64,000 nt of DNA, from assembly GCF_000003815.2 (NCBI RefSeq), contig NC_049987.1, positions 16,195,390 through 16,259,389 of the forward strand. The letters are read 5' to 3'. The DNA is from Branchiostoma floridae. Lineage: Eukaryota; Chordata; Leptocardii; Amphioxiformes; Branchiostomatidae. A program made the position numbers and the translations under genes. Below, one piece after another: positions 14,579 to 40,039 of this stretch (position 1 is its first letter; every line of letters begins with the position of its first letter). The notes beneath the pieces were generated by a model. The model had not been told where the DNA came from, searched no databases, and saw only the letters and a program-made list of their open reading frames with translations.

Positions 14579-15626
14579 TTAAGAGTCATTGCACGAGAAA
14601 ACCAGGCAGAGGCCGGAAGATGGGGGTCGGCCAAATCGGTTCATACTTTGTATGTATGATAGGTATGTGGAACTATTAACAGCCATATACTTAAAACCCT
14701 CCAGCTATTTTCCGTTATGGCGTTCTGGGACCCCCCTCAGAGAACCTCAAAAAACCAACAATTTATGGCTGAAAATTACTCAAATTGCGATGGCTATCCT
14801 GAAAAATGTACATTAGATACGAACCTACCTTATATATTTTCATATAGCATGGGTCCTTAAGTTTTACAGATCAAAAGTTAAAGATGATACATCGAAGTTA
14901 AGAGGGTGTACTAGGGGGTTACCTGAACCACTGAAAGCAGATTTTCATCACTGTAAATTTTGGTGATTTTTAAGGCCCATTATCTGCTATACGCAGTGGC
15001 TCTGGTGAATGGTTTTACTGTTGCTAGATAGAGGAACATCTACTTATTCAAAAACAATCGTCATCTATTTGGGCCATACATAACGCGGGCCGTGAGAGGG
15101 GGGTCTTTATGGGGACTTTTCGAGTTTGGGGCTATAATAAATCGGGCAATTATATTATAATATGGGGTAAGTCACGGCAAATGTTTGTATAGTTGTTTGT
15201 AAACAATGTATAACTGTCAAAAATATTATGATTGATTAGTTATGTTAATTGGGCTCCACATGGGGGATATAAGGATACTGGAAACGGTATTTTGCCGATT
15301 TTACACGTTTTAATTATTGCTTTCTTATGTGATTAAGCTGGTACCTTCTGAAATCACTTCGTATATACCTATTTTGTAGTGCGCAACTGAAAAGGCTCTA
15401 CATGGGGGTTACCAGGACTCCACAAATGTGATACTATTTAATAAACAGGGCACATGGATGCATACCTACTTCAGAAATGTTGAAACAAGACCACAACAAA
15501 AGTCAAAATTAATGCTATTTTGGGATGGATACAAGTGCATCGTACTTTTGTTATTAATTACGCAATACAGTACATGTACAGCTATAGACAAAGTGCTGTA
15601 CACCAATGGCGTGTTAGTATACCTGG
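14579..15626 (+). repeat. long inverted repeat, left copy
   Basis: It starts with TTAAGAGTCATTGCACGAG at 14579 and matches the reverse complement of 38956-40039 over its whole length, mostly with single-base differences and small indels. I see no coding frame in it. It is AT-rich with several tracts of G or C such as GACCCCCC. No third copy is seen in the window. Confidence 0.85.
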
Positions 15627-16419
15627 TCCTGTTGATTTGTCTATGTGGATGACATGGCCAAATGGCCAAAAAGTTGCATTCATTATGAAATCAGGTGAGT
15701 TACTGTAGTCCGAAAGGAGGAACATTGACAAAACACGCAGATTATGATATACCAAACAACAGATTCTGATTTTCGTTCCTTCACATCTTCTTGTTTGTCA
15801 CTAAAATTGACTTTGGCATTCTAAGACATTGGCATACATTTGTCGATACAGTTGCAGCCTACGGCATATATTTGTTCATTTTGTAGCTGCTTTGTTTGAT
15901 ATACAATATGGTTTAATTTTTTTTCTTAATGTGAAAATGGCCAATAACTGACGTGAACACGGATGTCATCCAAAACAACTTGGCCTATAGTCATTAGTTA
16001 AAAGTAAACTCTATGGCAAACCCTTTACACATAGAGCCACATAATAAATCATACGATCGGCAAAAAACAAAAACACACAAGAAATTATACTTAAAAAAAA
16101 CTTTTAAAATGCATTCTTACAAAAAGAAAAGTTTACTTTTGTTGGACTACTGATACAATAAAGAACTAAGTTAAACCTTATCTGTAATTGCTAACAGATT
16201 CTTGTGAGACCTTAAACCTGACATACTCGTATTGCAATTGAGTAAAAAAACTCTTGAAAGCTTTTTTTTACATTTTAATTTTGTACAAATTGCGCAACCA
16301 AAACTGAAATGAGAAAAAAGGCAACTTGCACATGTGCATCTGCCAAGGATAGTCTCTAATGCCTGTATAAAAATAACTTTCCTTGTCACGGAGCCTGTAA
16401 TGCCACTGGGGGAAAGGGT
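15627..16419. other. no gene seen
   Basis: AT-rich. A faint match to the mirrored position (about 38750-38800 on the other strand, CACTTTTGTT..GTTGGA text) may be diverged inverted-repeat sequence. No exon is seen. Confidence 0.35.
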
Positions 16420-17090
16420 ATCGGATGTAGCCATATTCGAGCAGGGATATTTGCGTATTTGTAACAAATGCTAGCGAATGCAAACGGATTCGAGTTGGAT
16501 ACCTAAAATATCCGAAATTTGGATTTTTTGCATCCGGAATGAAAAGACTCAAAAATATCCCAAAATGGGATTTTCCACGGATGCGAAGTCGTTTTTTTAG
16601 GGATTTCTTTGGATACCTGGAATGATCGGATCGCAAAGAATCCCCAAACGGTATTTCCCTCGGATGCGAAGTCGTTTTTAAAAGAATTTCTTCGTATACC
16701 TGGAATGAACGGGTCCCAAAACGGCCATTGCCACCTATGCGAAGTTGTTTTCATAGGAATTTCTTCGTATATTTGTCATGGTCGGATCCTAAAGAATCCC
16801 AATACGGAATTTGCCGCGGATGCGAAGTCGTTTTTATAGGATTTTCCTCGTATATTTGTCATGGTCGGATCCTAAAGAATCCCAATACGGAATTTGCCGC
16901 GGATGCGACGTCGTTTTTAGAGGATTTTCCTTGTATATTTGGCATGGTCGGATCCTAAGAAATTCCAATACGGCATTTGCCCCGGATGTGAAGTCGTTTT
17001 TTTTAGGAATTCGTCGTATTTTTGGAATAATCGGATCCTAATTAGTTTTGAAAAAACGGCTTTTGTTGCGGATACGAAATCGCGTCTTCG
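16420..17090 (+). repeat. 83-bp subterminal tandem repeats
   Basis: The marker ATGCGAAGTCG and its variants occur at 16581, 16664, 16737, 16820, 16903, 16986 and 17072, mostly 83 bp apart. Other landmarks per unit are GGTCGGATCCTAAAG, AATACGGAATTTGCC and a T-run. A degenerate leader runs from about 16420. Because 83 is not a multiple of 3, the open frames here shift between units and are not genes. Related words (AATACGAATTTGC, GGATCC, CGGATGC) occur in opposite orientation at 37640-38480. Confidence 0.85.
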
Positions 17091-17238
17091 TTTACTTCAC
17101 ACATTCCTGAATATTAACGTTATTCTCACCTATACCTTCACCTCAGTAGGCAGATCCGACATGCCTATTGAGAAAATATTTATACTACTGTATGCCTATA
17201 AAATACATAGGAGTGAATGGATGTATGAATGATAAACC

Positions 17239-17244
17239 TTTATT
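17239..17244 (-). terminator. polyadenylation signal (AATAAA on - strand)
   Basis: TTTATT on the + strand, about 200 bp beyond the stop codon of the six-exon gene. It gives a short 3' UTR (17239-17445). Confidence 0.55.
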
Positions 17245-17445
17245 CAAAACCAAATACTAAGTGATTGAAACTACAGAAAAGAACAAAAAGAGAAAATACA
17301 ATGTGATTGATGATATGATATACTACTTGTACAATCTAATGTATGTCACAGTATGTCTCTTTGTTACCTACTCTAGCATTGTTGAACCTTTCGTTGTCTA
17401 TACATTGCCACTGATGCAATTTAACTACATATAACATCATCTCAA

Positions 17446-18072
17446 TCAGCCACTAGCCTCTTCATTCTCCTCATTTTCAAATGGACGTATTCCATCTTCC
17501 ATTTCATACTCTCCGCCTACTGACCAGTCACTTCCCTCTGACACCTCACTTTCCTCTGAGTCTGACACCTCACTTTCCTCTGACACCTCACTTTCCTCCG
17601 ATACCTCACTCTCTTCCTGTACCCCACTCACCCCACTCTCTCCCTGAACCCCACTCTCTCCCTGTACATCACTCTCTTCCTGTACCCCACTCACCCCACT
17701 CTCTCCCTGAACCCCACTCTCTCCCTGTACATCACTCTCCTCCTGTGCCTCACCCCCCTGCCCAACGTCTAGGTATTCCTTCCCTACAAAGTGTATGTCT
17801 GGCACATCTCTTTTACTAGGCTCGGTAGAGCGAATCCTTTTGTATCTAGATTGGGGGTTCTTTCTGATCACGGCTTCCACCCCTGGCTGGCATCTGTCAA
17901 TGATATCGGTGAGTCGCTTTGCCCGCCAGGATGGACGCCTGACCACCCATGTTTTCTCCTGCTCTTCGTCCGTTTCCTCATCCGACATGAGGTCAGGCTT
18001 GGCGTCGCTCAGGTACTTCAGGGATGCTGGACTCAGGATGTCCTGGCCGACCTTGACCCTGAGCTCCTTCAT
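17446..18072 (-). CDS. unknown acidic-tailed protein, exon 6 with in-frame repeats
   Basis: The terminal exon has an acceptor TTTTTTTAG directly before 18072. The Met codon there is internal, not the start. A 63-bp unit repeats in tandem at about 17612-17738, giving a repeated ESGVQGESGVSGVQ-type peptide, followed by EESEVS copies. It ends at a stop at 17446-17448. Confidence 0.75.
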   Translation of the reverse strand: MKELRVKVGQDILSPASLKYLSDAKPDLMSDEETDEEQEKTWVVRRPSWRAKRLTDIIDRCQPGVEAVIRKNPQSRYKRIRSTEPSKRDVPDIHFVGKEYLDVGQGGEAQEESDVQGESGVQGESGVSGVQEESDVQGESGVQGESGVSGVQEESEVSEESEVSEESEVSDSEESEVSEGSDWSVGGEYEMEDGIRPFENEENEEASG

Positions 18073-21000
18073 CTAAAAAAACAGAACAAATATGGTTTAG
18101 AACATTGGCATCAGAGTCATAGGCTTGGAATTGTGATAACCACAAAGTCCATCCAATCTGAGGACTATTATCAAATAATTAGCTAGAGAAAATCTAACAT
18201 TATGTTAACATTATGAGTAACAAAAATACTTTGGGGGAATATATTATCTTACGTGTTAGCAATTCTGTTTCAAAGAATGAAGTCTCTAAGTGTAATAAAT
18301 CGTTAGTTAGGAGTGGGGCTGGGTACTGGTTTGGCCAGACCGTTTTTTACCAGAACCGATTCGCAAGTTAAAAAATTTCAAGAAATCTATTGTATTTAGA
18401 CAATGTCACATCCCACTATTACTTTGGCCATGGAATTGGAAAATACCCATGAAACAAAGATGATTAGCCTACAATATATCAATATTCAATTCATTGTGTC
18501 GGTTCTAATTAAGTGAACAATAAAAATGCGCTACGAAAAAAAAACACATCAAATTTGCAAGACACAAGGTTGGTTCGTGCTATTGTGGAAAGTTCCTCAA
18601 CAATCCTCGTAAAATTTCACTCATAACGAAAAATCAGTGCTCAGAAAAAATAAGCCTGGGGGCAAACAACATTTCTTCTTTCTTGTGCATGTGTATTCAA
18701 TCCATATTTCCGAGTTTGAGGCATATCTATGTCGTATTCAAAAAAAGAAACTTCAGCGACCAACGAAAACAACAACAACAAGCAGTTATATGCATAGTGG
18801 ATGAATTGCATGGTTGCTACAAGGCGTTGTTTGGAGTTTTCGTGTGAAGTGATTGGCTAACATTGTTATATTCTTGTGTGGTTTGGTGAGAAACCACGAG
18901 ACTTGTCCGGCGATTCAAGATGGAGTTGTTGTTTTAATACGTCCGGCACAAAACCTTCTTTCTTTGGGCCACATTTCTGCCACTTAAACTCAGCCAAATG
19001 GATTGTATACATGCTCACAAGAAGGAAAGAAATATTGTATGCCCCATGGTTAATTATTCTGTTCACTGATTCTTGATTTAGATTGAAAATTTACGAAGAT
19101 GATTGAGAAATTTTCCACTCGAGCTAAGTATGTACCAACCTCAGCCTCTGTGTATATTGACGGACAGGACCAGGTCCAGACCTGAAGTCAGAACCAAAAC
19201 CTCTGGCCTGAACTGGACTTGAACCCGATCAAGCAAAAGGGTATCCACCCCTAGTCAGTAGTTAAGAATATTAAGATAACGCTTTTCCAGCTACATTATT
19301 CAATGATGGAGAGAGACGAAAATCCTTACCCTAGTCCGTCTGTTGACCCGCTTGGTCTTGTCTTGTTCTTCCGCAGACGTCCCATCCCTCTCACTCTTCT
19401 CTGCCCGCCGTATGTTGTACTGTATGTTCCTGCATGCCCCTAAAAAGAGAGTATGAATTATAATCCATGATCACATAGGAATATTCTAGTATGCATATTT
19501 TCATTCACCAATTTTCCATTTGTCTCTTGATATACATGTGTTTAGTCTTACACTGCATTATACTTCTTCAGCAGCTTTAAAACATGTCAAATATGCTTGT
19601 AAGACAACCAAGGAAGCATGTTCGAAGGAAGTGGAATGAATTAACCTAAATCAAGTGCTGAACATAAGGCAGTTTTTCTTTTTATCTGTGAAGATTCTGA
19701 TTAACTGGTTTTACCAGACTGCGCCAGACTTACTATTAGGAAACTAACTTTTGACAGACAACACCTGTGACTTACTTCTTATGGCTCTGTCGGGGTATGG
19801 GACATCACCATCCTTGATGGCCTGAGTGATGCGCCTGGTCACCTCCTGGTTGTGTTGGCCTTCCATGAACCTTTAAAAATAAAGTGTATGTTAATCCTAA
19901 AAGCATCATAGAAGTCTTTGGCATAAGGTATGGCCAGTAATGGATCATCATTCAATGCATATCCCTGCGGTGAACACCCACCGTGGTAGACCTACTTTGA
20001 ACGTGTGCATTTTTTTCAAATCTTTTCATTACTGATATCTTGTTGAAATCCATATACATGCAAGCTTATTTTAATTACAGTGTTGTGTCTGAGACACCTT
20101 TTTCACATGCTATTTGGAAGATCACAGCAATAATTTGTAATTCATAACCTTTCATAGCTAGTATGTCAAAGATTCTCTGTAAACAAGCATGACATTTTTG
20201 CAATGCAATGAAGTGTAATATCATATTTTACTTACTTTTGATCCCCACGGTAGGTCATGTCCTCCCCCAGTGCCTTGTAGATTCGCTTTGCCTCACGCTG
20301 CAAAGATCCAATGAAACAAATTTAAGTCTTGCTATCACATTTCATACATACATGTTATCTTTCCAGCTTTAAAAGGCAAAGGCAATAAATAAAATTCCCT
20401 GAAATTACATTCATCCATCATAATATTGCTTGATATAATGATAATAATAATGATAATAATAACATATACATCTGCATAAAAACACCTTTCTGATGTTATT
20501 GAACATCGAACCATCCCATCAAAAATCAAAGTTCTTGGTCCCTCTCATGCCACCAGGTATCAAGATTAAACAGTGACTTAAGTTAATGGCTCATAATGTC
20601 ATTAAGGTCATGAACTCCTTTCAGCGATGAAGGACAGTTTTTGGAATTGGAGGTCAAACTCTGTGTGCTTCACCTCGTGATGAAGATGAATGTCGCAGTG
20701 AACATGGCAGCCGAGCTGGAACTTTTGAACTTTTCAATAGCCCAGGTAAACAAATAAATTTAAAGGTGGCAAAATGGACAGCAAACATCATTCACAAAGA
20801 TTTCAAAAAATTGTGGAAAGATTGACATAACAGGTGACTATCACCTTTTCAAGATGTCAACTCCGAACATTAATAAAGGACTGCGAAAGTTTCTGCATTT
20901 TTGGTACATCCCTAATCTAAGCTTGGTACTCATTTCCCCTTAGTGAAGTGAAGTGAAGAAAGTCGTGTTAAGTGCCTTTCCCAAGGGCACAAGGTTGTTG

Positions 21001-24000
21001 ACATAGCAGGATCCGAACCTGGGACCACTTGGTCCTGAGCCAAACATTCTACTACAAACCTACCATTATATTGTCTTTGATTGTATATAATCAGGATGAG
21101 AAATTGAACAATGTTTTTCACAAGCTGTAGTGACAGGTTCCAAGTAGGCTGCCATGTTCAATGTGACATCGTGAGAGCGTATAGTCACCATTTTTTTTTA
21201 ATTACACCAATCTAATAACCTAGTGGGAAGATTCAAGAGCTGGAGGTATAATTTTGGATGGCTCAATAACATCAGAAATGTTTGTATTCCACATTGTATG
21301 TTCACTGAAAGACACTATTCTAATGTCACAGATACTAAGAAACTGTTGTAGTTTGGTGTAATATGCCTTTTAAATCTTAAATGATACCAGATTTAAAAGC
21401 TGACATTTTGAGGTTTTACTACAGATAAAACATTTGCCAAATACTAATCAGTTCAGGGACTGATTGGGCCTCCTCTCGGAGAGGCGTGACCTGAGTGAAA
21501 GGGTACAAAGAATACTTGACAAGAAGTACAAGTGTGTGTGAAGTATGAACAATGTAATAGATTTGACAAGCGAGCAAACTTACTACCAGTTCTTTAGAGG
21601 GTTTGGGGGTTCTGGGAGAAGGAGGGACGACTCGAGGGTGAGTCTGGTTCTGGTTCTGGTTCTGCTGAGTGAGCATATCCATTAGCTGTCTGGTACTCTC
21701 CCTGTTCTCCTCCTGACTGTCCTGGACATTTTTGGAGAGTGTCCTGACCTCTTTAGTTACCTGATGTAGAATCCTGGAAAACAGGCAGAGATCAACATAA
21801 AGATTGCATAGTCAGTCATACCATAGGCAATTAATATAGACAGAAGATAGGCATACAGGGCTCTAGCCAGCTAAAAATTTATATCGGTCAGCCAGTTAAT
21901 TCCTATTGTTTCGCAAACCGCGAAAAATTAACTGTTGATACTACAAAGTTTTTGAGAGAAAATAAGATGCCACGCGGACGTTTTGTAATCTAACTTTTAT
22001 ATGAACAACTTTTAAAGTCGAAACATGCGGGTCGTGTGCACGGGGAATCCCCGCGACCCCCAACAGTGCTCTTGGCAGTGCGACGGAATGAATTCATTCA
22101 TAGAAGAAATGTAGGACATAAAAACAATAAGTATAACTTTGCTTTCGTTCTGATATGAGTTTTGAGGCCATAAAATCTCCTGAGTGGCACAAATCTAGAA
22201 GATAAGCAACACTCGAAACTTGGCAGCAACAAACTCAACGGTTCAAACCGGATTTGAACCGGACAATTACGTCTTAATACTGGCGACAAGGAAATCCTCC
22301 TTACATTGTAAGAAAAATCTAACTACTAGTACAAGTAATGTTTAGATCCGATGAAAGTTAATAGAATGCACTATTCCAGGGTTTGGAAGGACTGAACTGT
22401 GGTAGTAAATGTGACATTGATAAAATAGTCACTTTCTTTCCTCAAACAACCTCTGCTTGGGGTATGATGTATGCCCCAGGCACAGATGGGGAAGGCCTGA
22501 CTTTACTGGCTATCTAGATCTAGTCCATTTCATGAATTTAAACTTTGACTTGAACTTTCAATTACATTTTATCAGAATTTTGACCACTTAATTGAGGGGC
22601 ATCGCTTTGCTGACCAGTTTATGAAAAACTCTGGCATTGACCTTGAGGGTCAAGCAGTTTGTCACAGTTTTTTTATCATTCAGCCAAGTGGACTGACTTG
22701 GCTACATGGATTTTTGAACCCAGGCATTTTTCAACTGTCACACTCATAAGGGTTACTGTAGTTTGTTATGTTTCGTGTGTGAAGAGGTGAAGGTTGTTTA
22801 CCAGAAGATGCCTGGCGGAAATATCTTTTATCTATTACTTGAGAAGTCGAGAGATCTCTAAACAACCTTACAGGAGAAAAATGAATGTATGTTTTGTGTG
22901 TTTTGTTGTCTTTTCAATCACACTTTTACATTCTGTCGGTGGTCGCAGCGTGTGGTATTTTACTTTGAAAGGAATGCACCGGAACGCGCGGGGGGGTGGG
23001 GGAGGAGAGGAGATGGCGCCCATAAACCCCCTAGTGTTTTACATATGGGGACAACACCAGAGCTATACCGACAAAGAAGGTTACGGCCACACATGTCTTT
23101 TGTCCTTTTGAAACAAGAAAACTGTTATGCAAATTTTGTTTCGACTATTGTTTCGACTTTTGACAATTCACCTCGATGCCTGGTACCAGTGGTGTAACGT
23201 TACACACAGAGCAGTCATTGTTGGATCAATTATCACCGGGTCTGCTCACCGCTTCACACCCTTTGTCTAGAACGTTTAGCAGGCAAACTTGATCAAAGGC
23301 AAGTTTGCAAAATAAAACAAACAATTCAATATTCATTTCATTCTGTTCGGCACGACTTGTGAAATAATTCATGCTTCTAAGGGTGAAAATACCAGAGTAG
23401 GGTTTTGAATAACCATCCACATGACGAGACTGAACAAATACATAATTCTTGTGAATTGGATCGGGTGAAAATGCATAAAAGTGTAAATTTCGAGAAACAG
23501 CGCTTAGAACAAATTGAAGAAAGATGAAGAAAAAAACATGCACAAAAATATCTAACGTTACTCCCGACCGTAGTCTGAATGGCCTGATGCGTTTGTATAA
23601 TCCACCTCCAAAGTTTTTCAATTATGATACATTTCAAGTTTAACAGTTCAAAAATCAAAGAAGAAAAAAAAAGTAATCTGACACCGCTACTAAAAATACT
23701 ATAACGTTATAACTTACTTCCACATGTCGTCAATGGTCGGTTTACGGCCATGGTTGTCGTTCGGCTGGTCCCGCGGGCTTCTGCTGTTTCCAGGTAGCCT
23801 CGCCCCGTTCCCGATGCCTCTCCCCGCCCCGACCCCAGCGCCACGGCCCGGCGGTGTGTTGTCGGTCGGCTGGTCCCGCGGGCTTCTGCTGTTTCCATCC
23901 AGACCGTGCCGGTCTGATGGCGTCGTTCGTGCCATCTCCGCCCCGTTCAGAGCCGGAGCGCGCGGAGACTTGTTCAGTGCGCCTTTACCTTTGCGGCCAC

Positions 24001-24019
24001 TTTTCTTGGACTTTGGCAT
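17446..24019 (-). CDS. six-exon gene, acidic-tailed protein of unknown family (461 aa)
   Basis: Six exons join in frame with canonical GT-AG sites: 24019-23718, 21773-21584, 20297-20236, 19870-19776, 19439-19330 and 18072-17446. The total is 1386 nt, which codes for 461 residues plus stop. The N-terminus is basic (MPKSKKSGRKGKG), then low-complexity with two copies of NSRSPRDQP. Residues about 100-165 look like a coiled coil ending in a Q/N tract. The conserved-looking core (REAKRIYKALGED, YPDRAIRRACRNIQYNIRRA) spans exons 3-5. The C-terminal third is strongly acidic with in-frame repeats. I do not recognise the family. The basic N-terminus suggests a nuclear protein. It starts 374 bp from the divergent transposase gene, so the two may share a promoter. 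If the giant-element idea holds, it could be an accessory DNA-binding factor, which is conjecture. Confidence 0.7.
18313..19253. mobile_element. possible hAT-like non-autonomous relic in intron 5
   Basis: The left edge (GTGGGGCTGGGTACTGG) and right edge (complement GGGGTGGATACCC) are imperfect inverted ends about 0.94 kb apart, with GGTCCAGACC motifs near the right. No coding sequence and no clear target duplication are seen. Confidence 0.3.
19330..19439 (-). CDS. unknown acidic-tailed protein, exon 5
   Basis: 110 nt. The acceptor TTTTTAG and donor GTAAGG flank a Lys/Arg-rich segment (ACRNIQYNIRRAEKSERDG, then KRVNRRTR), consistent with a nuclear localisation signal. Confidence 0.72.
19776..19870 (-). 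CDS. unknown acidic-tailed protein, exon 4
   Basis: 95 nt, with an AAAG acceptor and a GTAAGT donor. It encodes FMEGQHNQEVTRRITQAI and PYPDRAIR. The phases fit exons 3 and 5. Confidence 0.72.
20236..20297 (-). CDS. unknown acidic-tailed protein, exon 3
   Basis: 62 nt between a TTTGCAG acceptor and a GTAAGT donor. It encodes REAKRIYKALGEDMTYRGDQ and ends in a split Lys codon completed by exon 4. Confidence 0.72.
20924..21066 (-). mobile_element. tRNA-derived SINE fragment
   Basis: It shares AAGTGCCTTTCCCAAGGGCA and GAACCTGGGACC, with a following TGAGCCAAACATTCTACTA, with the copy at 40105-40232. The inverse of these words forms the tRNA-like head of the longer SINE at 54036. Short SINEs of this type are known in lancelets. 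Confidence 0.6.
21584..21773 (-). CDS. unknown acidic-tailed protein, exon 2
   Basis: The acceptor TTTTCCAG and donor GTAAGT are both strong. It encodes a helix-prone segment (ILHQVTKEVRTLSKN) and a QNQNQN tract. 190 nt, phase 2 in and phase 0 out. Confidence 0.72.
21774..23717. other. intron 1 of the six-exon gene
   Basis: A 1.9-kb intron with no exon-like sequence on either strand. The open frames near 22.8-23.2 kb and 23.2-23.6 kb lack protein-like composition. Confidence 0.5.
23718..24019 (-). CDS. unknown acidic-tailed protein, exon 1
   Basis: ATG at 24019. The donor GTAAGT follows AA of a split codon (phase 2). It encodes a basic start, then Pro/Gly/Arg-rich text with a repeated NSRSPRDQP. 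GC content is far above that of the neighbouring introns. Confidence 0.75.
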
Positions 24020-24392
24020 TGCTGAGTTGGTCTGTTATGAACCACAAGAACCTGAAATTCTGGAGAAATGCAGTCGGGAGATCACGGCCGAGTGGTGACT
24101 CTGCAGGCTCGCCTCTGCAATGATTATTTTCCCAGGGAATTGGACCAGACCCCTGGGGCTTAGTGTTGCAGTATTCGAGTAGAGCAGAGTTCTGATTGGT
24201 CATCGGAAAGATGACAGCAGAGCAGATGTGAATCAAAGTAGTTTACCGACAGTTCTTGTACATGTGCTAAATAGTTGGAATCCACCGGGCCATTCAAATT
24301 GATATTTGCTGTGAAATGTCACAGGGCTTAGAGCGTAGTCTGTCTAGTCAGTTCTTGTCCAGTGGTTCGTGTGGTTGTGGAGGTTTATAGAC
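24020..24392. promoter_or_regulatory. bidirectional promoter region
   Basis: 373 bp separate the ATG of the six-exon - strand gene (24019) from the ATG of the + strand transposase gene (24393). Both first exons are GC-richer than their introns. No TATA box is obvious. The close head-to-head spacing suggests a shared promoter (inference). Confidence 0.5.
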
Positions 24393-24548
24393 ATGCCCAG
24401 GCGAAAGGGACAAACTGGAAGCGAGTACGACAGAAATCGTTGGTGCGCGCATTGTAGCGACCTCATCCCAAAATCGACATACTACGACCATGTCAGAAGG
24501 TACGGGGATGATGCCTGTGGGAACGGCGATCAGCCTTGCACAAAGAGG
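24393..24548 (+). CDS. tnp2 transposase, exon 1 (zinc-finger-like N-terminus)
   Basis: 52 codons from ATG 24393 to a GTAAGT donor. It contains RWCAHCSDLIPKSTYYDHVRR, the Cys-x2-Cys and His pattern with a following Arg-rich helix seen at the start of animal tnp2 proteins. An upstream in-frame GTG exists, but the ATG is the better start. Confidence 0.7.
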
Positions 24549-24681
24549 GTAAGTACCTTGGCTGAAAACACTCTCTTTATTTTCTTTACAAAATTAGACT
24601 GCCACATAGATAACAGTTAATACAGCTGCGTGAGTATTGTCTAAATGATTGTGAAACATCTCCTCGCTAGACCTCCTCTCC

Positions 24682-24813
24682 CTAATCTCCAAGCAGATCC
24701 TACGGTGCCATAAGATAGTATCAAAGCTGGCCAAGGAGTGTAGCCGGCCAAAGGAAGTCAAACGGTGGGTTTGATACTAATATTACGCCACAGTAGGTCT
24801 GCTTGGAGATTAG
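24682..24813. mobile_element. palindromic MITE in transposase intron 1
   Basis: The ends CTAATCTCCAAGCAGATCC and GGTCTGCTTGGAGATTAG are inverted partners. The interior TAAGATAGTATCAAAGCTGGC is mirrored by TTTGATACTAATATTA. It is followed by a run of C (about 24814-24829). A relative lies at 27094-27263. Confidence 0.8.
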
Positions 24814-25345
24814 ACCCCCCCCCCCCCCCAACCGGACTAATACCCCATAGACTCGAGATTTCTTAGCCGGAACTAGCAGAAGGACCATCTTGTGTCCAGG
24901 CTTCGAGGATCACTGGACAAATACTAGCATAAATTGGACAAATAGAAAGAATAGTTTGATAGAGGAGCCGGCCAGCCAGAAAGGATTACTAGTATGTATG
25001 CGAGGACGCATGCATTTATTGCCTGCATATGCAAATAATAATCAATAGGCTTTAAAATCCTTGGACTTACCAAGTGCTCTTATAATTTGGGGATGGATTT
25101 GCTTTGATTTTATAGTATGAATTTAATGGAATTTTTTCCATTTAACAGTTGACAATCTCACAATGATGATGATGATGGTAATAAATCTCACAGTACATCA
25201 GTATGGAGCTGCAGAAATATGTATTGATGCTGTATTGATATGTTATACTTAGTAATGGGCAGAAGTCAAATACTTGAAATGTACTGGTCATGCTGTATGT
25301 AATATAAATGTATGTGACATTGTGTGTCTTCTCCTTTCTTTACAG

Positions 25346-29565: not shown

Positions 29566-29665
29566 NNNNNNNNNNNNNNNNNNNNNNNNNNNNNNNNNNN
29601 NNNNNNNNNNNNNNNNNNNNNNNNNNNNNNNNNNNNNNNNNNNNNNNNNNNNNNNNNNNNNNNNN
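29566..29665. other. assembly gap (N)
   Basis: 100 N inside transposase intron 3. Confidence 0.99.
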
Positions 29666-30245
29666 GAAAATGAATTGTGCCCTGAGATGCTAACTGTCTT
29701 TTTAGCTGATATAATTAATTTATTTAAACAATGTGTTTTTTCTTCTTTGGTTTGTTGTGGCAAAGTGGAGCAGAGCCCCAAGCTCAATTAATGATTGTTT
29801 ACAATGGCAGTCATTTGTACTAATACAAGCAGAAGTATTGGGCTGCTTTACACAAATGGCAAAACAAATGACTTGTCCTAAAAATGTCTTTCAGCACGCT
29901 GTGCTTTTTTGTCCACATAAAAAGATCTCCTGAGGTGCCACACTGCAGCGTGCCGCAGCACGTCATTTTGGTTTTTACGCTTACCTTTTCTGTAGTAAGG
30001 GACTTCTGGCCGGCTGACTCCCCTAGTGTACTATGACTCTATTTGTACAATTTCTACAGGTCACCGATATACAAAGCCTGGTAGAGACTAGGCAAAAGTC
30101 TGTACTACCTAACTTTAAAAGTCTGTTTTACTTGAGGAGTATTGTTCTACTTGACTATGAGGGTAGTTTAAAATTTGAAAAATCTCAGCGTAGAAAGGTT
30201 GGATGGAAATTAAGTTCTTGTATACAATTTATTTTCTTTTCACAG

Positions 30246-32911
30246 AAAGAGGACAAAGAGGATACTGAAATATGGAGTGATGCTGAGATGGAAGAAGATA
30301 CGCTGGACTTTCAACGTGGCACAGACATGGAGGACATCAATGATGCAGGCCAAACAGAATCAAACATGTTTATGCCTCTAATCTGTTTATTGTTGCTACT
30401 GCTAGCCAAGTGGAAGTCAGTTTTCACAATATCAGATTCAGCTGTAGAGGTACTTTTGAAGATTATTGGGAGTATTTTGATGGCCATAGGAACGACACTG
30501 TGTATGGAAACTCTGAAGAGCATTGCTTTGGCTATACCAAGAACCATATATATGTTTAGAAAGAAACTAGGTCTGGATAGAAATGATTTTGATCGCTATG
30601 TTGTCTGCCCTGTTTGTGATTCTGTGTATCCAGTTGAGGATGCAGTAGTAACTATTCGTGATGGCAACGGTAGAATTGTAAGAAAAAAATCAGCTAAATG
30701 TTCTCATGTTGAGTTTCCTAGGCATAAGCAGAGAAAGTTTCGAAAGCCATGTGGAACCATTTTGATGAAGACTGTCCTTGGTAAACATCAAAAAGAATTC
30801 CTATATCCCAAACGTACATTCTGTTATCGCAGTGTAGTAAAGTCCCTTGAGGACATGTTGCAGAGGCCAGACTTTATTGAGGCCTGTGAAGCATGGAGAA
30901 ATAGAAGTACACAACATGGAACTTACACAGATGTGTTTGATGGTCAAATCTGGAAAGACTTCCAAGTGGTCGATGGTGAACCATTTCTTGCTGAGCCATG
31001 TAACTTGGCTCTTATGTTAAATGTAGACTGGTTTCAGCCTTATGGTTTCAGCCTTACAAGAACATCAAAGAGTCCATTGGCATTATGTATTTGTCTGTAA
31101 TGAATCTCCCAAGAGAACAAAGGTTTAAAGAGGAAAATATCATTGTGGTTGGAATCATTCCAGGTCCACATGAACCCAAACTACACATCAATGGTTTTCT
31201 CGAGCCTTTAGTAGAGGAGCTACAAAAGCTTTGGAAAGGTCTATGGCTGCATGATAGCTCTTTGGTCAAAAAGCAACGTTACCGTGCTGCTCTGTTATGC
31301 CTTGCCTGTGACATCCCTGCAGCCAGAAAAGTTGCAGGTTTTTATGGCCACATGGCAACGAAAGGATGTAGTAAGTGTCTGAAGTCATTCACTAGAGATT
31401 GTAATAATCGTGTAGATTATTCTGGGTTTGAAGAGGAGTTTCCTCTCAGAAGTCACCAGGACCACTGCAGGTATGCTAAAAGGGCAAAAAGAGCAAATAA
31501 TAGAGCAGCAAGGGAAAGAATTGAAAAAGAGTATGGTGCTAGATATAGCTCCTTGCATGACCTTCAGTACTTTAATGTTATTAATATGCACATTGTGGAT
31601 GTTATGCATAACTTATTGGAGGGTACAGCAAAACGGGTTATGCAAGTGTGGAGAGATACTGGGGTGCTGTCAAAGGAACAGTTCTGCACACTGCAGGCTC
31701 GAGTTGATGAAATGACAGTACCCAGCAACATTGACTCCAGCATACCCGCAAAGATAGAATCGTCTTTTGAAGGATTTACAGCAGCCCAATGGAAATCCTG
31801 GGTTTGCATTTATTCATTGTTTGCATTGAAAGGAGTAATACCTGAGGAAGATTATAATATCTGGAGGTTGTTTGTATCTGCTACAAGACTTCTGTGCTCT
31901 AGGATTATAACAGAAGACCAACTTAATGATGCCCATCGCTGTCTGAAAATGTTCTGCAATGCGTTTGAAGGAAAATATGGAAAAGAATGGTGCACTCCTA
32001 ACATGCATTTGCACCTCCATTTAAGGGCATGTATTCAAGATTTTGGGCCTGTTCATGCATTCTGGTGCTTTTCCTTCGAACGTGCTAATGGATCCCTTGG
32101 CGACTATCATTCCAACAATCGACACACTGAAATAGATATGATGAGAAAATGGCTTATAGACTGGAAAGTTGCTTCCAAGCAGAACGAAGGATCAGATTAT
32201 GATGTAGATTTTGCCTCATTTTTCGATAAACCTGTTTCAAATAAGTCCATCTTAACTGCAGAGCAGGTAAACATGTTGAAAGAATTAGCCCAGAATGATG
32301 ATCTACAGCACAACAATTTTGAAGTAAATGATCAGTGCGAATCTATGTTACCACCAGTCAAGAGAAGCAGTATGTCAGTAGAGGAGAATGAGGCACTATT
32401 AGCCATGTTTCAGGTACTTTATCCCCATGAAGTTGTTAGGGTTTCTCTGATCCACAATTACTGTGACAGATACTTGTTAGGAGGTTTTCTACTGTGTCCA
32501 TCTGAATATAGAAAAGGATCCTCTTCATGTATAGATGCAAAATGGTTTAACCATAGGCAGATAACTGGTGAACCTATTATCGACCCCAGTGCTTCCCCCA
32601 GACCAGGTCGCATTTCTAAGATATGGAAAGTTTTTGTGTTCTTGAAGGCAGAAGAAACAGAACGAAAGATTGAACACACAGTGGCAGAAGTCAGGTGGTT
32701 CAAGGTACATGGGAAACGGTACTTCTATGGGATGAATAGTTCCTGTACAGTTTGGGAGGAAAGCTATGAACCCTGGTCCTATGCTTCCTTCCTTCCCATG
32801 AAAAGGATTTTGAATCAGTGTGCTTTCTGCACATATAAGGTGCCATTCAACAACAGATGGGAAGAAACTGTCAATGTTGTCTCAACTTTAACGTCAGTAA
32901 GGTGTGTATAA
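30246..32911 (+). pseudogene. tnp2 transposase, exon 4 (catalytic domain, frameshifted)
   Basis: The acceptor TTTTCACAG ends at 30245. An early hydrophobic stretch (MFMPLICLLLLLLAKW, about 30366-30413) is unusual for a transposase. The frame runs from 30246 until the duplicated TGGTTTCAGCCTTA (31029-31042 and 31043-31056), after which the protein continues in frame 2 to 32911. Exon length minus 14 is a multiple of 3, so the duplication alone explains the break. Confidence 0.75.
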
Positions 32912-34456
32912 TCTCGCACAAATAATTGTTACTGTTGAACTAGATGCCATAATACCGCCACATGAGAAATACATGAAAGAGATGTATACAGCAAATGCAC
33001 CATCAGTAATCCTGAGCCACGTACACTTCAGATATTTAGCTGTCTTGAGAAGGCCTCTATAATGTGTTTTTGATGTGGCGGTATTATGACATCAGGAGTT
33101 GATGAAAAGGTATCCCTTAATGACTTTATCTGTCTGCTAAAACACACATTGATATTCAATGAAAGGTATCATTGATGATGATATGCTACATGTACTTAGG
33201 ATAGTACAATAGGGAGCAAATACCTTTGTTGTAACAAAATGAAATGTAAATGTAGCAATAAATGTGTCCTGATATGATCCCCCAGATGTTCATTTTTTTA
33301 GTTACATGATAATTTATATATGCATACATTCAATGATACTAGGTCTCTCCCAGTGAAGTGGCATGTTGATAGCACAATGTGTTAGCATTGATAGTCAGGA
33401 GTTTTACCTAGAATAAATATGCAGCACTGCAATGTTGTTTTTTTGTTGGGGTATATTTGGCAGTTGCATACAGAGTGGTGTACAGAAATTATAAGTGAAC
33501 ATACATGTGTCTAGTTCATGTAGCTATATATTTACCTTGTCTGGGGGTGATCCAGATATGTTATTAAATATGTAAATATGCTAATATTGCTGAAACTTGA
33601 CTTTTGCACATTATGTTTCTTAAATTGTTTCCTCACCAGTTTGTATCTGTTAGCACCTGTGTACCAGAGAGATGGGAATAAAATTTGTTACTTTTATATA
33701 ACATGACAGTTCTGCATGTGTTGTATTTCTGGTTTTATCGTGGTCCATATAAATGAGATAGTCAATAATTTTGTGGTAACAAACTTTTTAAATACAACAA
33801 TAAATAAATCTATAGTTGTAAAGTTTGAGCTTGATCTGAGACTTTCTGTCAATCATTGTAACATGAAATCTGGTCACGATCATATGGTGAGACCCATTTA
33901 TCAGCTCGCCTGGTTACAAGTACAGAGTCTGCCATGCTATAGTCTCTAATCTCTCCCACCCTGGAAACAGCTTGTCCCGCTGCCAAACACAGCACGCGGG
34001 TCATATTATAAGCTTTGGGTGCCAATAGAAATCGGGTGCCAACTCTCAACTTGTGACCATCTCGGGCGAAAGGGCTATACTTAAGTGTGAAAGGGCCATA
34101 GTTTAGAGCAAGGGTCTGGTATCCAGGCTATTTATCAGCATATATTATCTGGAGGTGCTAAACTGTCAAACAATATGAGGTCTGGTGATTTTTTTTTTGC
34201 GATAAAGCATATTGCAGTAACCTGGATGAAGCTAACAACTAAGAACTCCAGCTATGCTACTGAACCCAAGAAATCCAACCTACAGAAGCATTTTCAAAGA
34301 AAAGAAGATAAATTTTCCGTGACTAAGTGTGGGAATTTTCTCGGCTACTGTAGTAATCGACTTTTAGTTTCCTTGTCAAACAGAAGTAGTAAAACCTAAA
34401 TTTGAAAATCAGCATATCAGAGCTAAGCTAGCAGTATGAATGCCAGCTATCATCCA
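32912..34456. other. 3' region between convergent genes, with a MITE
   Basis: It holds a second copy of the 28196-type palindromic MITE at 32943-33096 (ATGCCATAATACCGCCACATG and its inverse). AATAAA candidates for the + strand transcript occur near 33257, 33413 and 33678. I see no exon. Confidence 0.55.
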
Positions 34457-35588
34457 TTATTCCACAGCCTGGGGAGAACCCTGCTGGCACAGACTTGAAA
34501 GCCATGCACTTAATGGCTTTTCATTAATATGCTCATCTAATGTTTTATAGTTATCCTGATTATTAACAAATGCACGGTGTTTTTCAGAGTTTAGATGAAA
34601 TGTGAGGTCATAGTACTGTTCATTGCAACACTCACAGTAGGATGGACATTTTCTTGTGACGGTATTTCCTGTCTTCTTGCACGTGGACCTGTTGGGATTT
34701 TTGTCATTACCATGAAGGAAAGACAACGATGTACATGTGCTCCATTCCCTATTCGTGAACTCTTTATATAATGGCCTATACTTCCCTGACAAATCTTCAA
34801 CCTTTACGAATGGTGACTTGAGTGTTCTTGTCTGTGGATTTGGCAGTTTGCTTTCTGCTGGCCTAGGTGGCCCACTGTTCGATAGTATGGAGATATCAAG
34901 TAAGGATGTGTCGAATAACTGTTTCCCAGAGTTGCGCAGTTTGTCAAAATCTATCTGAGGAGTTAGAGATGCAAGTATACCCTTTCTATCAAAAGCAATA
35001 CATGTCGTGTTGGTATCTAAAAACATAACATTTGCTCCACCCTTAGAAAGTATGAACTTCTGCAAGGCAGCAGCTTTCCCTTTAGCCATTCCAACTTCAT
35101 AAATAAAAACTTTTTCATTGCTTAAGCATGTGTTATCATCCAATATGTTTATACCGCTGGTGGATGTCCCATGTCCTTGCTCAGATGAAGTCTGTTCACA
35201 GTCAGTGGATGCATCGACAAATGGTGGCAGGTGTGCTTGAGATGATGACTCACTGGATACTGATTCCCTGCAGTCTGCATTGAAGCTCTTACATGGAGTA
35301 GGAATATCCTCCACATCTGTGCATTGTTTGATGGTAATATCAGAAATTTCTTTGCTCTTGCTAGGTTTATGCAAAAACTTCAAGCCAACATAGTGGGTAA
35401 TACGTTTACTGCCCAGGCGACGTTTCTTGAACTGTCCATGAAAGTGATGGTGAAGAATTTTGGCAAAAGTGTTTGGTTCAATGCCAGTGCCTGTAGAACT
35501 GCGAGTTTCACTGAGAAATCCATGAATGCAGTCCTTCAGCTGTAGACCACATGTCACATCACTTGTTGTGGAGATGTTGTCTTGGATC
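34457..35588 (-). CDS. RFX-DBF4-like gene, exon 2
   Basis: The acceptor TTTTTTAG ends just before 35588. The exon is open for 1132 nt to the stop at 34457-34459. It carries the rest of the RFX domain, a Ser/Thr-rich linker, the N-like region, motif M and the zinc finger, and ends SLCQQGSPQAVE. Confidence 0.8.
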
Positions 35589-36698
35589 CTAAAAAAGCAG
35601 AACATTCCTTATAAGAAGAGCATACCATGCTTGCAGATGAATTTGTGGAGTAAAATGAGGTTTTAGTAGATGTTTAAACATTATCTCATATAATAAACAG
35701 CGCAAATCTTATGAATTTTCTGTCACACTAGCCCTATATATATTTCAAGGTACACCCTAGCATATAGTGATAAATATGACAAATACTATAATATTACTCT
35801 AGTAATCAGAATCAGGGTAAGCCCTACCCTGGGGGCCATCCGAGATCGAGCAGGCTAGGACAGTTTATTCGGTAGCCCAAGACAATTAGGTCCGCCGAGC
35901 TCCTATTAGCACCCCGGCCCCGGGGAGTTTAAGCCCGATTAGGGGTAACGATAACCCCCGGAGCGCTAATGTGATGTCGGCGGGCTGACTGCCTTGGCTC
36001 CCCGAACAAATCTCGCGAACAAATCTGCTAGCTACTCGGTTCTGTCTGACTCCCAGGGTAGGTAAGCCCCGGGCCTGAGCATATTATTAAGTTTCCCCCA
36101 GTAGATAGAAGGGCCAGGGCAGCCTGAATATCCAGTCGGCGGCAGTGCTCAAGGTGGCCGAAGAAGCAAGTCCGAAGCTTCGGGAGATTAGCGCGGCCTG
36201 CCTGCCGGTGGCCTGGCTAAGTTCCTTCGGCTTCCATGGCCGCCAGTATAATAACAGTTTATTCTCATGCACTGTGGCCCATATAGACGGACAAATGTAT
36301 ATGTATAAATCATATCTTGAATTGTGGGGTGTCCCTTCAAGCGGGGGTGTTGGGTTTCCCGCTGTAGGAGGCCCCGAGCGCAAAACTACCGAGTGCCATG
36401 GTCGGACCCGGCGGGCGGCGCACAACAACAGTCCTGAGAGGACCACCCAATACAGTCGGTAAACTGGTTACTGTAGCTTGACGGCAATTAAGCTCATTCT
36501 AGGGTAAAAAGACCACCACTGAAAAGACGTCGACTCGACGACTCGAGCAAAGCGTCTGAAATAAGACTAATTATTATAAATAATATAGCGAGCACAGACA
36601 CACATGTAGAGATTGAATATCTAATGTTAACCGCACAAAAATAAATCGATCGCTCCTTACCACTTTAGGCACTGTCGGTTGACAGAGTTGGAAAACAT
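34457..36698 (-). CDS. RFX-type winged helix fused to DBF4-like N/M/C regions (389 aa)
   Basis: Two exons (36698-36661 and 35588-34457) join in frame through a split Trp codon. Residues ~8-85 resemble an RFX DNA-binding winged helix: CLKWIQDN, NTFAKILHHHF, KKRRLGSKR and HYVGLKF follow the order and spacing of RFX proteins. Residues ~172-218 (KVFIYEVGMAKGKAAALQKF and on) resemble the BRCT-like DBF4 motif N. Residues ~270-290 (SPFVKVEDLSGKYRPLYKEF) match DBF4 motif M, and C331, C334, H344, H350 form the CX2CX9HX5H DBF4-type zinc finger (motif C). In known DBF4, motifs M and C bind and activate Cdc7, so this protein may target that kinase to DNA. The pairing with an RFX domain is not one I know. 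It is short compared with DBF4 (usually over 600 residues). Confidence 0.72.
35824..36061. mobile_element. GC-rich MITE-like element in the RFX-DBF4 intron
   Basis: It is bounded by CTACCCTGGG and its inverse CCCAGGGTAG. The inside is GC-rich with AAGCCCGATTAGGGGTAACG and other short palindromes, and is unlike the flanking AT-rich intron. Confidence 0.45.
36062..36660. other. GC-rich intron sequence, unassigned
   Basis: The rest of the RFX-DBF4 intron. The part at 36100-36460 is GC-rich and open in several frames, but no frame has splice sites or recognisable motifs. It may be another repeat. Confidence 0.35.
36661..36698 (-). CDS. RFX-DBF4-like gene, exon 1
   Basis: ATG at 36698, 12 codons plus 2 nt, then a GTAAGG donor. 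It supplies MFSNSVNRQCLK, and the Trp codon split over the intron completes the first helix motif of the RFX domain, which supports this start. The 5' UTR lies in a locally duplicated segment (36773-37450). Confidence 0.65.
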
Positions 36699-36772
36699 GA
36701 TGACTGCACCAAAGTTTCCCGGAAACTTCGCAATAAATCGTCTCTCCTGAAGTGCGACTGGACCCCTAGCGC

Positions 36773-37450
36773 CGTTGGCAAGTTTAGCTGACCACTTCCA
36801 GTGCCGAAAATCTTTACATACTCTTTGCTCGCCTTGGGCGTCGCGGACACACGTAAAATACGCAGGGATGCTGCATGTTGTGAGTGCGCCTTCTAGCGGC
36901 GTTCATAATTTCTACAACAACCAACACATCAGCTGTACATTACCCAGAAGGCATCTCTCCACTGGACGACACCACGGATGCAAAGAAAACCAAATTCGTA
37001 TATTTAACGTATCCCAATATTACTAGTACCCATTGGCAAGTTTAGCTGACCACTTCCAGTGCCGGAAATCTTAACATACTAGTACTCTTTGCTCACCTTG
37101 GCCGCCGCGGACACATGTAACACACACACGGAAGGAACTAATTATTTCACTTTGTCTTCTCGCTACCAAACTTTGACGGTCTGAGAAAATTTAACCTGTT
37201 CTCGGAACTAGATGTTCACTGTCGCGGCAAAAAGCTTAAGTCTGTGATTTATTTGTTATCAGCAATGAAGTTCAATGTTACAGTCGTCACCGTGAAAACC
37301 GTGAACATAACAGCACATTAAAAAAAACAGTATTTTGCTACATGTTGTGCGTGCGCCGTCTAGCGGCGTTCAAAATTTCTACAATCACCAACACACCAGT
37401 TGTAGATTACCCAAAAAGCATCTCTCCTATGGAGGACACCACGGATGCAA
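36773..37450. repeat. duplicated segment upstream of RFX-DBF4 exon 1
   Basis: 36773-36990 (from TTGGCAAGTTTAGCTGACCA to CACCACGGATGCAAA) is repeated as two pieces: 37031-37120 and 37338-37450, separated by about 220 bp of other sequence. Both copies contain the GTCTAGCGGCGTTCA-type word. The duplicate covers the probable promoter and 5' UTR. Confidence 0.75.
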
Positions 37451-37639
37451 AAAAAAAAAACAATTTGAATATCTAAGATATCCCACGATGACCTACGAGG
37501 CACTAAAAGCCAGAAAAACAAACAAACACTTGTCTCGGATCCCAAAGATTACAACGCTACCACAGTGGCATCCGATGGAACTGTTATGAAAAGAGAAATA
37601 ATAAACTTTGAATATGGAAGACCCATGGAATGATACGAC

Positions 37640-38480
37640 AAGTAATATGTTTGGCATTTTTTGGTATCCATGCCGCTTCCGTTCGGAGGTTGCAAATTCG
37701 TATTCTTGGAATTCGGCTGCATCCGAGGCGTTTTGCGGGTGCGAAAAAAAAGCAGATGTGGATGTTCAAGGCATACCAAGATTGTCATAGGGCATTGCTG
37801 CAATGGTGTGGATCCAATGGATGCACCAGAAAAATACAAAACATCCTTACGAATTCCAGTGTATCGTGAAATGTCACACTTACATGGACACAGCACACTG
37901 TGGTATGCGATGTATAAAAAACAAGGAATGATACGCCCACATCAGTACAAGCAACATTTTGCTGATAAACAAGAGTCCTCACCACGTATTCTTTCGTTTA
38001 TGTTAGAAGTAAGTACCCATACGAATATGTTTGAATCTGTAGGTGATTTAAGGATACCAACGAATGCGTCGCGAATGTGTTTGGGATCCGTTAGCATCCG
38101 CCAGGATGTTGCAAATTCGTATTCTTGGTATCCGTCTGCATCTGAAGACTTTTCGTTGTAAACAAGAATCCTGACCACGTATTCTTTAGTTTACTCTAAG
38201 AGTAAGTATCCATACGAATACAATGTTTGAATCCGTTAGTGGCTTACAGATACTAACGAATCCGTGATTATAAGTAAGTATCCATACGAATGCCGTGTTA
38301 GCATCCGTTTGTATCCTCCGAGAGTTACGGATACCAACGAATGCGTTGCGGATGAAAGTGGGATCCGTCATTTTTTGGGATCCGTGATGGTTTTGGGGAT
38401 CCGTCAGCATTTGTCAGCATACGTCAGCATCCGTCAGGTGTTGCAAATCGGAATCCGTCAGCATACGTCTACATATTCGG
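37640..38480 (-). repeat. subterminal repeats near the right inverted repeat
   Basis: Words such as TTGCAAATTCGTATTCTTGG (37693 and 38107), GGATCCGT, GCATCCG and AAGTAAGTATCCATACGAAT recur irregularly. Read on the - strand they resemble the left-side 83-bp unit (CGGATCC.., AATACG.AATTTGC, CGGATGC). The open frames through this block are not genes. Confidence 0.65.
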
Positions 38481-38955
38481 TCTTTTCGTCTAGTGATGGG
38501 CAGATGAAAATGGCCCGATACACGCATTTATTGCTTTAGCTTTAATGATTCGAGGCCACATTGGGCTTGAACAACAGCTTTGCACCAGCTACCTTAACTA
38601 GCTGCCTGGGCCACTTGACAATCATCAGCTTTCTGGCCAGACAAAGGAAGGGTAATCCAAGGCACGTGACTGTATGAGTGCAAGTTGATTTTTGTAATTT
38701 GTTGCTTTTATTGAATTTGTAGCATACTTTTCAGCAAAGTGCTTTATCACCACTCCAACAAAAAACAAAAGTGAACTGTCCTTTTGGTGAATATGCGTTT
38801 CGACGGTTTAGCTATTTGTAATTTCTTGTGAGTTATTACATGTACATGTATTTTGCAGATCTAACAGTAACTGTTCCCTTCTAAAGGCGTCTCACATATA
38901 CAGGTTTTGTGATAGGCTTTGTTTTTGGTTTGTCCTTATGTTGATACATGAATAG
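38481..38955. other. no gene seen
   Basis: Sequence between the subterminal repeats and the right long inverted repeat. No exon is seen. Confidence 0.35.
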
Positions 38956-40039
38956 CCAGGCATACTAACCCCACATTTGATGGACAGTACTTTGTCTATA
39001 GCGGTATAACTAAACTGTACCCTACTGTATACCGTAATATTGATGAAAAAAGTAGCATGCACATGTATCCATCCCAAAATAGCTTTAATTTTGACTTTTG
39101 TTGTGGTCCTGTTCTTGAACTTTCAGCATTTATGAAGTAGGTATGCATCCTATGCCCCTTTTATTAATTGTACCATAGTTGTGGAGTCCTGGTAACCCCC
39201 ATGCAGAGCCTTTTCACTTGGGCACGATAAAGTGGGTATATATAAAGTGATTTCATAAGGTACCAGCTTAATCACCTAAGAAACCAATGATTAAAATGTG
39301 CTAAATCAGAAAAAATCCGTTTCCAGTATCCTTATATCCCCCATGTGGAGCCCCAACTAACATAACCAATCAATCATAATATTTCTTAAAGTTATGCATG
39401 GTTTAAAGACAACTATACAAACATTTGCCGTGACTTACCCCCATATCATAATATAATTCACCCAATTTATTATAGCCCAAAACTCGAAAAGTCCCCATAA
39501 AGACCCCCCTCTCATGGCCCGCGTTATGTATGGCCCAAATAGATGACGATTGTTTTTGAATAAGTAGATGTTCCTCTATCTAGCAACAGTAAAACCATTC
39601 ACCAGAGCCACTGCGTATAGCAGATAATGGGCCTTAAAAATCACCAAAATTTACAGTGATAAAAAATCTGCTTTCAGTGGTTCAGGTAACCCCCTAGTAC
39701 ACCCTCTTAACTTCGATGTATCATCTTCAACTTTTGATCTGTAAAACTTAAGGACCCATGCTTTATGAAAATATATAAGGTAGGTTCGTATCTAATGTAC
39801 ATTTTTCAGGATAGCCATCACAGTTTCAGTAATTTTCAGCCATAAATTGTTGGATTTTTGAGGGTCTCTGAAGGGGGTCCCAAAACGCCATAACGAAAAA
39901 TAGCTGGAGGGTTTTAAGTATATGGCTGTTCATAGTCCCACATACCTATCACACATACAAAGTATGAACCGATTTGGCTGACCACCATCTTCCGGCCTCT
40001 GCCTGGTTTTGCCTGGTTTTCTCGTGCAATGACTCTTAA
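38956..40039 (-). repeat. long inverted repeat, right copy
   Basis: The reverse complement of 14579-15626 with mostly single-base differences. It ends CTCGTGCAATGACTCTTAA at 40039, mirroring the left start. It includes a small local duplication of GCCTGGTTTT near 40005-40020 that is absent from the left copy. Confidence 0.85.

Follow-up and report, generated by a model that had tools for sequence, protein, structure and literature searches.

Does the DNA enclosed by a pair of long inverted repeats on one chromosome of Branchiostoma floridae form a single giant transposon, or do separate elements lie together there? The window analysed here is a stretch of 64,000 nucleotides of contig NC_049987.1 (positions 16,195,390 to 16,259,389), which is G000:C9:16195390-16259389 in the 513-Mb, 431-contig genome that was searched; contigs are labelled C and a number throughout. 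A preliminary description, made from the letters of the window, had taken positions 14579 to 40039 for one mobile unit of 25.5 kb, an EnSpm/CACTA-type transposon with inverted ends of about 1.05 kb and three spliced genes, one of them a tnp2 transposase. In all likelihood, the locus is instead a 22.1-kb three-gene CACTA/EnSpm element inserted in a terminal inverted repeat (TIR) element of about 3.5 kb bounded by TTAA, and the inner element carries a DBF4-like gene that recurs in its clade with both CDC7-activating modules kept.

The geometry that had suggested one unit is present. In a self-comparison, the inverted arms (14598-15626 against 40010-38956) are 89.9% identical over 1,057 columns, with individual pieces at 86-98%; the outermost 30 bp of both arms are identical and TTAA bounds each edge, at 14579-14582 and 40036-40039. 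A genome search with the left arm returned at least 41 match rows, the best 40 of 471 candidates being scored, so that counts are lower bounds. Thirteen other arm pairs are among the matches listed, and ten of them were examined; those left out, on C1, on C2 and at C5:14.16 Mb, have arms 3.2-3.3 kb apart. Eight of the ten span 3.25-3.64 kb from TTAA to TTAA, the C12 copy is without tips, and a pair on C5 spans 11.3 kb. None of the ten holds inner-element DNA, a lone match of 101 bp at the C10 locus lying outside the TIR element. In five copies (C6, C12, C14 and two on C11), the DNA to the left of the inner element (to 16402) directly adjoins the DNA to its right (from 38496), forming an empty site that reads GTAATGGGCAG in three copies and a one-base variant in two. 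For the other five (C5, C7, C8, C10 and C230), the match to the window ends before the junction, its left part reaching 16168 or 16276 and its right part 38557 or 38688, without guest DNA there. The preliminary description had suggested a genome search with the 1.05-kb repeat for other loci that bracket the same genes; as far as examined, the repeat occurs without them (0 of 10), an outcome that the description had named as counting against its single unit.

The inner element is likewise present without the 1.05-kb repeats, in full on C323 and in part on C15. Its boundary is placed at 16404-38495 by the host empty sites, by both ends of the C323 copy and by the right end of the C15 copy; it begins CACTGGGGGAAAGGG and finishes CGTCTAGTG. 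The C323 copy (C323:273576-296014) is 96-99.5% identical to the window element in long pieces and has CCT on both sides. A diverged relative of 23,783 bp on C17 (C17:5344764-5368546) carries all three genes in unchanged order, has CACTGYGCGAAAGGGGTCRATTTCCGGACA at both ends, with 28 of 30 bp of the TIR identical, and is flanked by GTA on both sides. On C235, two end regions are 99% identical to the C17 relative with other flanks, the second end lying amid rearranged repeats. The CACTA termini are inverted, reading CACTG...TAGTG in the window and C323 and CACTG...CAGTG in C17, and the target duplications are of 3 bp in each (CCT, GTA and, in the window, ATG with an extra C on the left).

EnSpm/CACTA elements are defined by CACTA or CACTG ends, target duplications of 2-3 bp, a tnp2 transposase and subterminal repeats, and the inner element has CACTG/CACTA termini, 3-bp target duplications, a tnp2-type transposase and short subterminal repeats likewise. 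The motif CGGATNC occurs at 29 sites between 16404 and 38495, with 11 of them inside the leftmost 0.7 kb, 17 inside the rightmost 1.6 kb and a single one outside these zones, so that the mirrored subterminal repeats reported just inside the arms are borne out by 28 of 29 sites; in the C17 relative, 30 of the 39 subterminal motifs TTTCCGG/ATTCGGA fall within the two terminal kilobase bins. The inner element and its relative differ from known elements of the group in their length, 22-24 kb, and in an accessory gene, which is DBF4-like with a possible RFX-type segment and not of the plant TnpA type. The assignment to EnSpm/CACTA, with tnp2, subterminal repeats and accessory genes, therefore holds for 16404-38495; the kilobase inverted ends do not belong to this element. 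Because the ten other arm pairs examined lack the genes, such arms bounding elements of about 3.5 kb, because the inner element is found away from the arms with its own target duplications and CACTA ends, and because five of the ten host copies show an empty site, a single 25.5-kb mobile unit with kilobase TIRs, a TTAA target and all three genes retains practically no probability, well as the arms, TTAA edges and genes of the window fit its geometry. The apparent 25.5-kb unit arises because an inner CACTA/EnSpm element and an outer TTAA element lie together, and nesting among transposons is ordinary; a new class of transposon, marked by kilobase-long ends, can thereby no longer be claimed.

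The interest that remains lies in what the element carries. DBF4 is the regulatory subunit of the CDC7 kinase (Dbf4-dependent kinase, DDK) and activates the kinase that starts DNA replication. The gene earlier singled out as a cell-cycle-type cargo gene proves to be DBF4-like and to recur in the element family. Residues 256-362 of its product align to human DBF4 crystallised with CDC7 (4f99_B, E = 1.1e-11), spanning motifs M and C, and a profile built from three lineages matches the same chain with E = 5.1e-16. Pfam zf-DBF (motif C) scores 51.6 bits in the window against a cut-off of 24.8 (E = 9.7e-14); Pfam Dfp1_Him1_M is under its cut-off in the window (14.3 against 25) and has no match in the C17 and C9 proteins. 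The motif-M core P-F-x-K-x-x-D-x-S-x-x-Y-R-P and the CxxC/H/H finger are invariant in all three lineages, at 36% identity to the window protein. As in DBF4, motif M (PFVKVED...YRP) is followed by the motif C zinc finger, and a possible BRCT-like segment lies upstream in the order expected of motif N; unlike DBF4, the element version is transposon-borne, has an extra, putatively RFX-like N-terminal segment and holds its region of 383 amino acids in one open frame, where the presumed host gene has, as read from open reading frames (ORFs), apparently an intron inside motif M. By eye, a splice acceptor appears at the same position of the DBF4-like exon in all three lineages, and the lineage comparison found no conserved exon upstream of it.

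A genome search for zf-DBF, with 22 of 22 candidates scored, gave 10 match rows: six in CACTA copies beside tnp2, one in the presumed host DBF4 (C15:12.306-12.308 Mb, with no tnp2 match nearby), two on C10 and one weak match on C6. The C10 match (C10:10.427-10.429 Mb) is in two places and therefore probably extends over two exons; another piece of DBF4-like sequence is at C6:27.88 Mb. The order third gene (minus strand), tnp2 (plus strand) and DBF4-like gene (minus strand) is common to the window, C323, C17, C235 and C9:0.866-0.894 Mb (the C9 copy referred to here). At C15:2.97 Mb, tnp2 and the DBF4-like gene were found with no match to the third gene, so that all three genes are present at five of the six loci. 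The DBF4-like gene is thus shown to be a recurrent component of this CACTA clade, standing beside tnp2 sequence at six loci, which represent three diverged lineages. In the tnp2 genome search, for which the best 69 of 89 candidates were scored, no zf-DBF was found among matches near tnp2 loci of 37-49% identity (for example on C5, C6, C13, C16 and C19), the loci themselves not having been read.

The N-terminal part of the protein can be labelled more tentatively. Upstream of motif M, a segment reading KLIHHQFRGQFKKRRLG...YLGLRW resembles the RFX DNA-binding domain, and a PDB profile search with the N-terminal segment returned RFX1 as its top match (E = 0.11). The protein may share with RFX transcription factors (PF02257) a core resembling KLIxxxFxGxxxKRRLGxxxxxxYxGLxW; it differs in that just the latter half of the domain can be made out and that the window copy is below threshold. 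A relative on C11 (C11:11962801-11964400, at 11.963 Mb) has an ORF of 289 amino acids that is collinear with the N-terminal part of the DBF4-like protein and matches the C9 protein with E = 1e-12; it scores 27.4 bits for RFX, just over the Pfam cut-off of 27, and the stretch equivalent to motif N gives a BRCT match that is weak (E = 0.013, 16.2 against 21.3 bits). Some 17 kb from this ORF there is a weak match to tnp2. The protein may therefore be read, tentatively as far as its RFX-like and BRCT-like segments are concerned, as these two followed by motifs M and C of DBF4.

CACTA elements carry TnpA, which binds their subterminal repeats, and the DBF4-like protein may well be the accessory, TnpA-like factor of the element. 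An N-terminal domain of the RFX type would attach it to the subterminal repeats, and through motifs M and C it would draw in and switch on the CDC7 kinase of the host; excision and re-insertion would thereby be tied to S phase or to replicating DNA; a move from replicated to unreplicated DNA would then favour a gain in copy number. That an accessory protein binds the subterminal repeats and brings CDC7 activity, tying movement to S phase, is a plausible proposal that we put forward tentatively. The wider statement, that an animal CACTA clade encodes an activator of CDC7 joined in one protein to a DNA-binding domain of the RFX type, which sits on the subterminal repeats, bringing DDK to the transpososome or to nearby origins and so coupling transposition to S phase, appears somewhat unlikely in that complete form. 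Links between transposition and replication are known mainly for elements that exploit host replication. With an element that carries a DDK subunit, a link of this kind could be tested directly in a single protein; if the proposal is true, the element would be a transposon with its own replication-timing switch.

Several observations weigh against this proposal or the structure beneath it. The functional step, comprising DNA binding, CDC7 activation and S-phase coupling, is one that we infer from sequence. Pfam searches found no RFX (PF02257) or BRCT match in the window, C17 and C9 proteins, and in the PDB profile search a silencing protein (E = 0.14) scored about as well as RFX1. Both labels depend on the C11 relative, whose ORF stops before motif M with no zf-DBF match nearby, and which therefore supports the N-terminal labels only. 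The AlphaFold model of the DBF4-like exon is uninformative, with a mean predicted local distance difference test score of 33.5. No site for the strict RFX X-box consensus was found in the ends of both elements, a result that says little because the whole window also has none. At the insertion itself, an unexplained extra C (16403) stands between the left ATG and CACTG, and may be an insertion footprint or a later mutation.

The state of the copies also counts on this side. No copy in the window lineage is whole: the window tnp2 is broken, C323 has an early stop in the DBF4-like exon, and the C15 copy is partial, with stops in both tnp2 and DBF4-like genes. C235 retains tnp2 fragments only (query residues 10-153 of 635), and the C9 tnp2 is split over frames. 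Open tnp2 frames exist at C323 (956 amino acids) and C17, and tnp2 and the DBF4-like gene are both open at C17 only. Nonsynonymous (dN) and synonymous (dS) divergence was estimated from Nei-Gojobori counts by script, with no significance test. For tnp2, the window against C17 gives dN 0.19 and dS 1.79; for the DBF4-like gene, C17 against C9 gives dN 0.43 and dS 1.33, a dN/dS of about 0.3. Within the window lineage, the window and C15 genes (281 codons) differ by dN 0.024 and dS 0.029, a dN/dS near 1, and the four differences between window and C323 in 1,149 bases are all non-synonymous, one of them a stop; for the window DBF4-like exon against C17 and against C9, dS is saturated. With dN/dS below 1 between lineages and near 1 inside the window lineage, selection is visible between lineages and not within the decaying window lineage.

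The explanation that competes best holds that the DBF4-like protein is a DNA-binding accessory, an analogue of TnpA, in which the DBF4 modules reflect ancestry and CDC7 is no longer engaged. This is a serious possibility, about as likely as the reading in which CDC7 is recruited. It agrees with the binding of subterminal repeats by TnpA, with the RFX-like N-terminal segment, and with PDB searches in which the DBF4-like protein gave no DBF4 match outside motif M and the zinc finger. SSQAHLPPF and NTTC are also kept across the three lineages, so conservation reaches beyond the CDC7-binding modules; however, those modules themselves are kept in three lineages, and a pure DNA-binding role would not need them.

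An improbable alternative is that the protein acts as a decoy, competing with host DBF4 or damping checkpoint signalling through its BRCT/motif N region. The segment resembling motif N, with its BRCT match in the C11 relative, would suit such a role, and the H-BRCT domain of yeast DBF4 is reported to bind the checkpoint kinase Rad53 (PMC6394760). Both activating motifs are nevertheless kept, including the cysteines and histidines of the zinc finger, and nothing points to inhibition. Some plant transposable elements capture host genes, and CACTA-type elements can pick up host sequence; passive capture by individual copies, with no role for the element, would also agree with a gene that drifts within the window lineage. 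This is more improbable still, as the gene is placed and oriented alike with respect to tnp2 across three diverged lineages, at 36% identity to the window protein, and shows a dN/dS of about 0.3 between two of them. The shared placement and this ratio together indicate that the DBF4-like gene is an old component of the element.

No transposon-borne DBF4 was found in the open PMC literature, as judged from titles and the starts of abstracts; Repbase lay outside the search and may hold such an annotation without comment. Nor did this search find any CACTA clade described as regularly carrying a DBF4 homologue, within a scope that covers neither Repbase nor other animals. The positions of the features described here are given in Table 1.

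Table 1. Positions of the nested elements, their edges and their genes in the window.
Feature	Position	Strand	Basis
Outer element, left half, including left arm of about 1.05 kb (14579-15626)	14579..16403	+	97% identity to C11:9924193-9926020; aligns with other copies of about 3.5 kb
Outer element, right half, including right arm of about 1.05 kb (38956-40039)	38496..40039	+	In other copies, follows directly on left half; inverted match to left arm
TTAA, 5' edge of outer element, target duplication	14579..14582	.	Paralogues of the exon entered by the C7 copy are uninterrupted, with one 4-bp site there
TTAA, 3' edge of outer element	40036..40039	.	Edge sequence
CACTA/EnSpm element, 22,092 bp, CACTGGGGG...CGTCTAGTG	16404..38495	+	Ends match C323 (both) and C15 (right); empty site in 5/10 host copies
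Target duplication ATG, left; extra C at 16403 precedes CACTG	16400..16402	.	Empty sites GTAATGGGCAG or close variant
Target duplication ATG, right	38496..38498	.	Flank sequence
Left subterminal repeat zone, 83-bp units, CGGATNC	16404..17100	.	TRF; 11 motifs at 16485-17069
Right subterminal repeat zone	36772..38495	.	Self-matches; 17 CGGATNC at 36975-38452
DBF4-like gene, open exon of 383 amino acids: RFX-like (weak), BRCT-like (weak), motif M, zf-DBF (motif C)	34457..35608	-	Human DBF4 and Pfam matches
Main tnp2 transposase exon, Transposase_21, frame-shifted in window copy	30027..32911	+	Pfam; C323 frame open for 956 amino acids
14-bp tandem duplication breaking transposase frame	31029..31056	.	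Not in C323 or C15 copies
Region of the probable first tnp2 exon, with Cys/His motif WCAHCSDLIPKSTYYDH	24348..24617	+	Conserved in C17, E = 6e-6; no Pfam match; splicing predicted
Third gene: exon 17449-18072, KYLSDxxPDLMSDEE...RRPSWRAKRL motif; possible upstream pieces 19747-19872, 19303-19470	17449..19872	-	DUF4616; conservation in C17

Three genes are present within the inner element as had been described, identified by Transposase_21, zf-DBF and a weak DUF4616 match; that they are spliced we infer from separate conserved pieces. The main tnp2 exon matches Transposase_21 (PF02992) with E = 3.3e-15 and 56.3 bits against a cut-off of 28.6. A 14-bp tandem duplication and a gap of 100 N (29566-29665) had not been remarked on before. 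With the reading frame of its transposase interrupted, the copy in the window is probably unable to move autonomously at present. The DUF4616 match of the third gene is below the Pfam cut-off in each of the window (E = 3e-4), C17 (1.2e-5) and C9 (8e-4), and its three pieces have counterparts in C17 at E = 4e-9, 2e-4 and 0.008, the last being weak. Fragments, for the most part, crowd one stretch of C6 (19.7-27.9 Mb), with 14 of 22 match rows of the third gene and at least 19 of 59 of tnp2; this is perhaps a region of low recombination.

The outer element is apparently non-coding and older than its insert. No long ORF was found in it, the longest (146 amino acids) being in the C8 copy. It resembles TIR elements without transposase that use TTAA, the target of the piggyBac, Kolobok and Sola3 superfamilies, in its TTAA target duplication, its TIRs and the lack of a long ORF, and differs from them by arms of about 1.05 kb. 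The copy at C7:24628837-24632472 interrupts a coding exon in a tandem array of genes that are presumably deltex-like, a name given from a protein motif, and the exon joined over one TTAA stays in frame. The joined site is covered by four paralogues. Both of those retrieved run through it without interruption and carry one 4-bp site, which reads GCAA; one of the two has a 3-base gap nearby. At this one locus, TTAA is thereby shown to have been duplicated upon insertion of the outer element.

The 11.3-kb arm pair at C5:762679-774002 was considered as a second giant unit and ruled out, as it consists of a 3.6-kb host element and a 7.7-kb insert at 764270/771947. The pair is long because a different insert sits there, with ORFs matching reverse transcriptase (E = 4.3e-12) and, just under the cut-off, a phage-integrase/tyrosine-recombinase-like domain (E = 1.1e-5); from this content we take the insert to be DIRS-like. 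It is a second nested case within the same kind of host element. Just to the right of the outer element in the window, a short foldback at 40375-40915 spans about 540 bp, with arms of 53 and 43 bp (92% and 88%).

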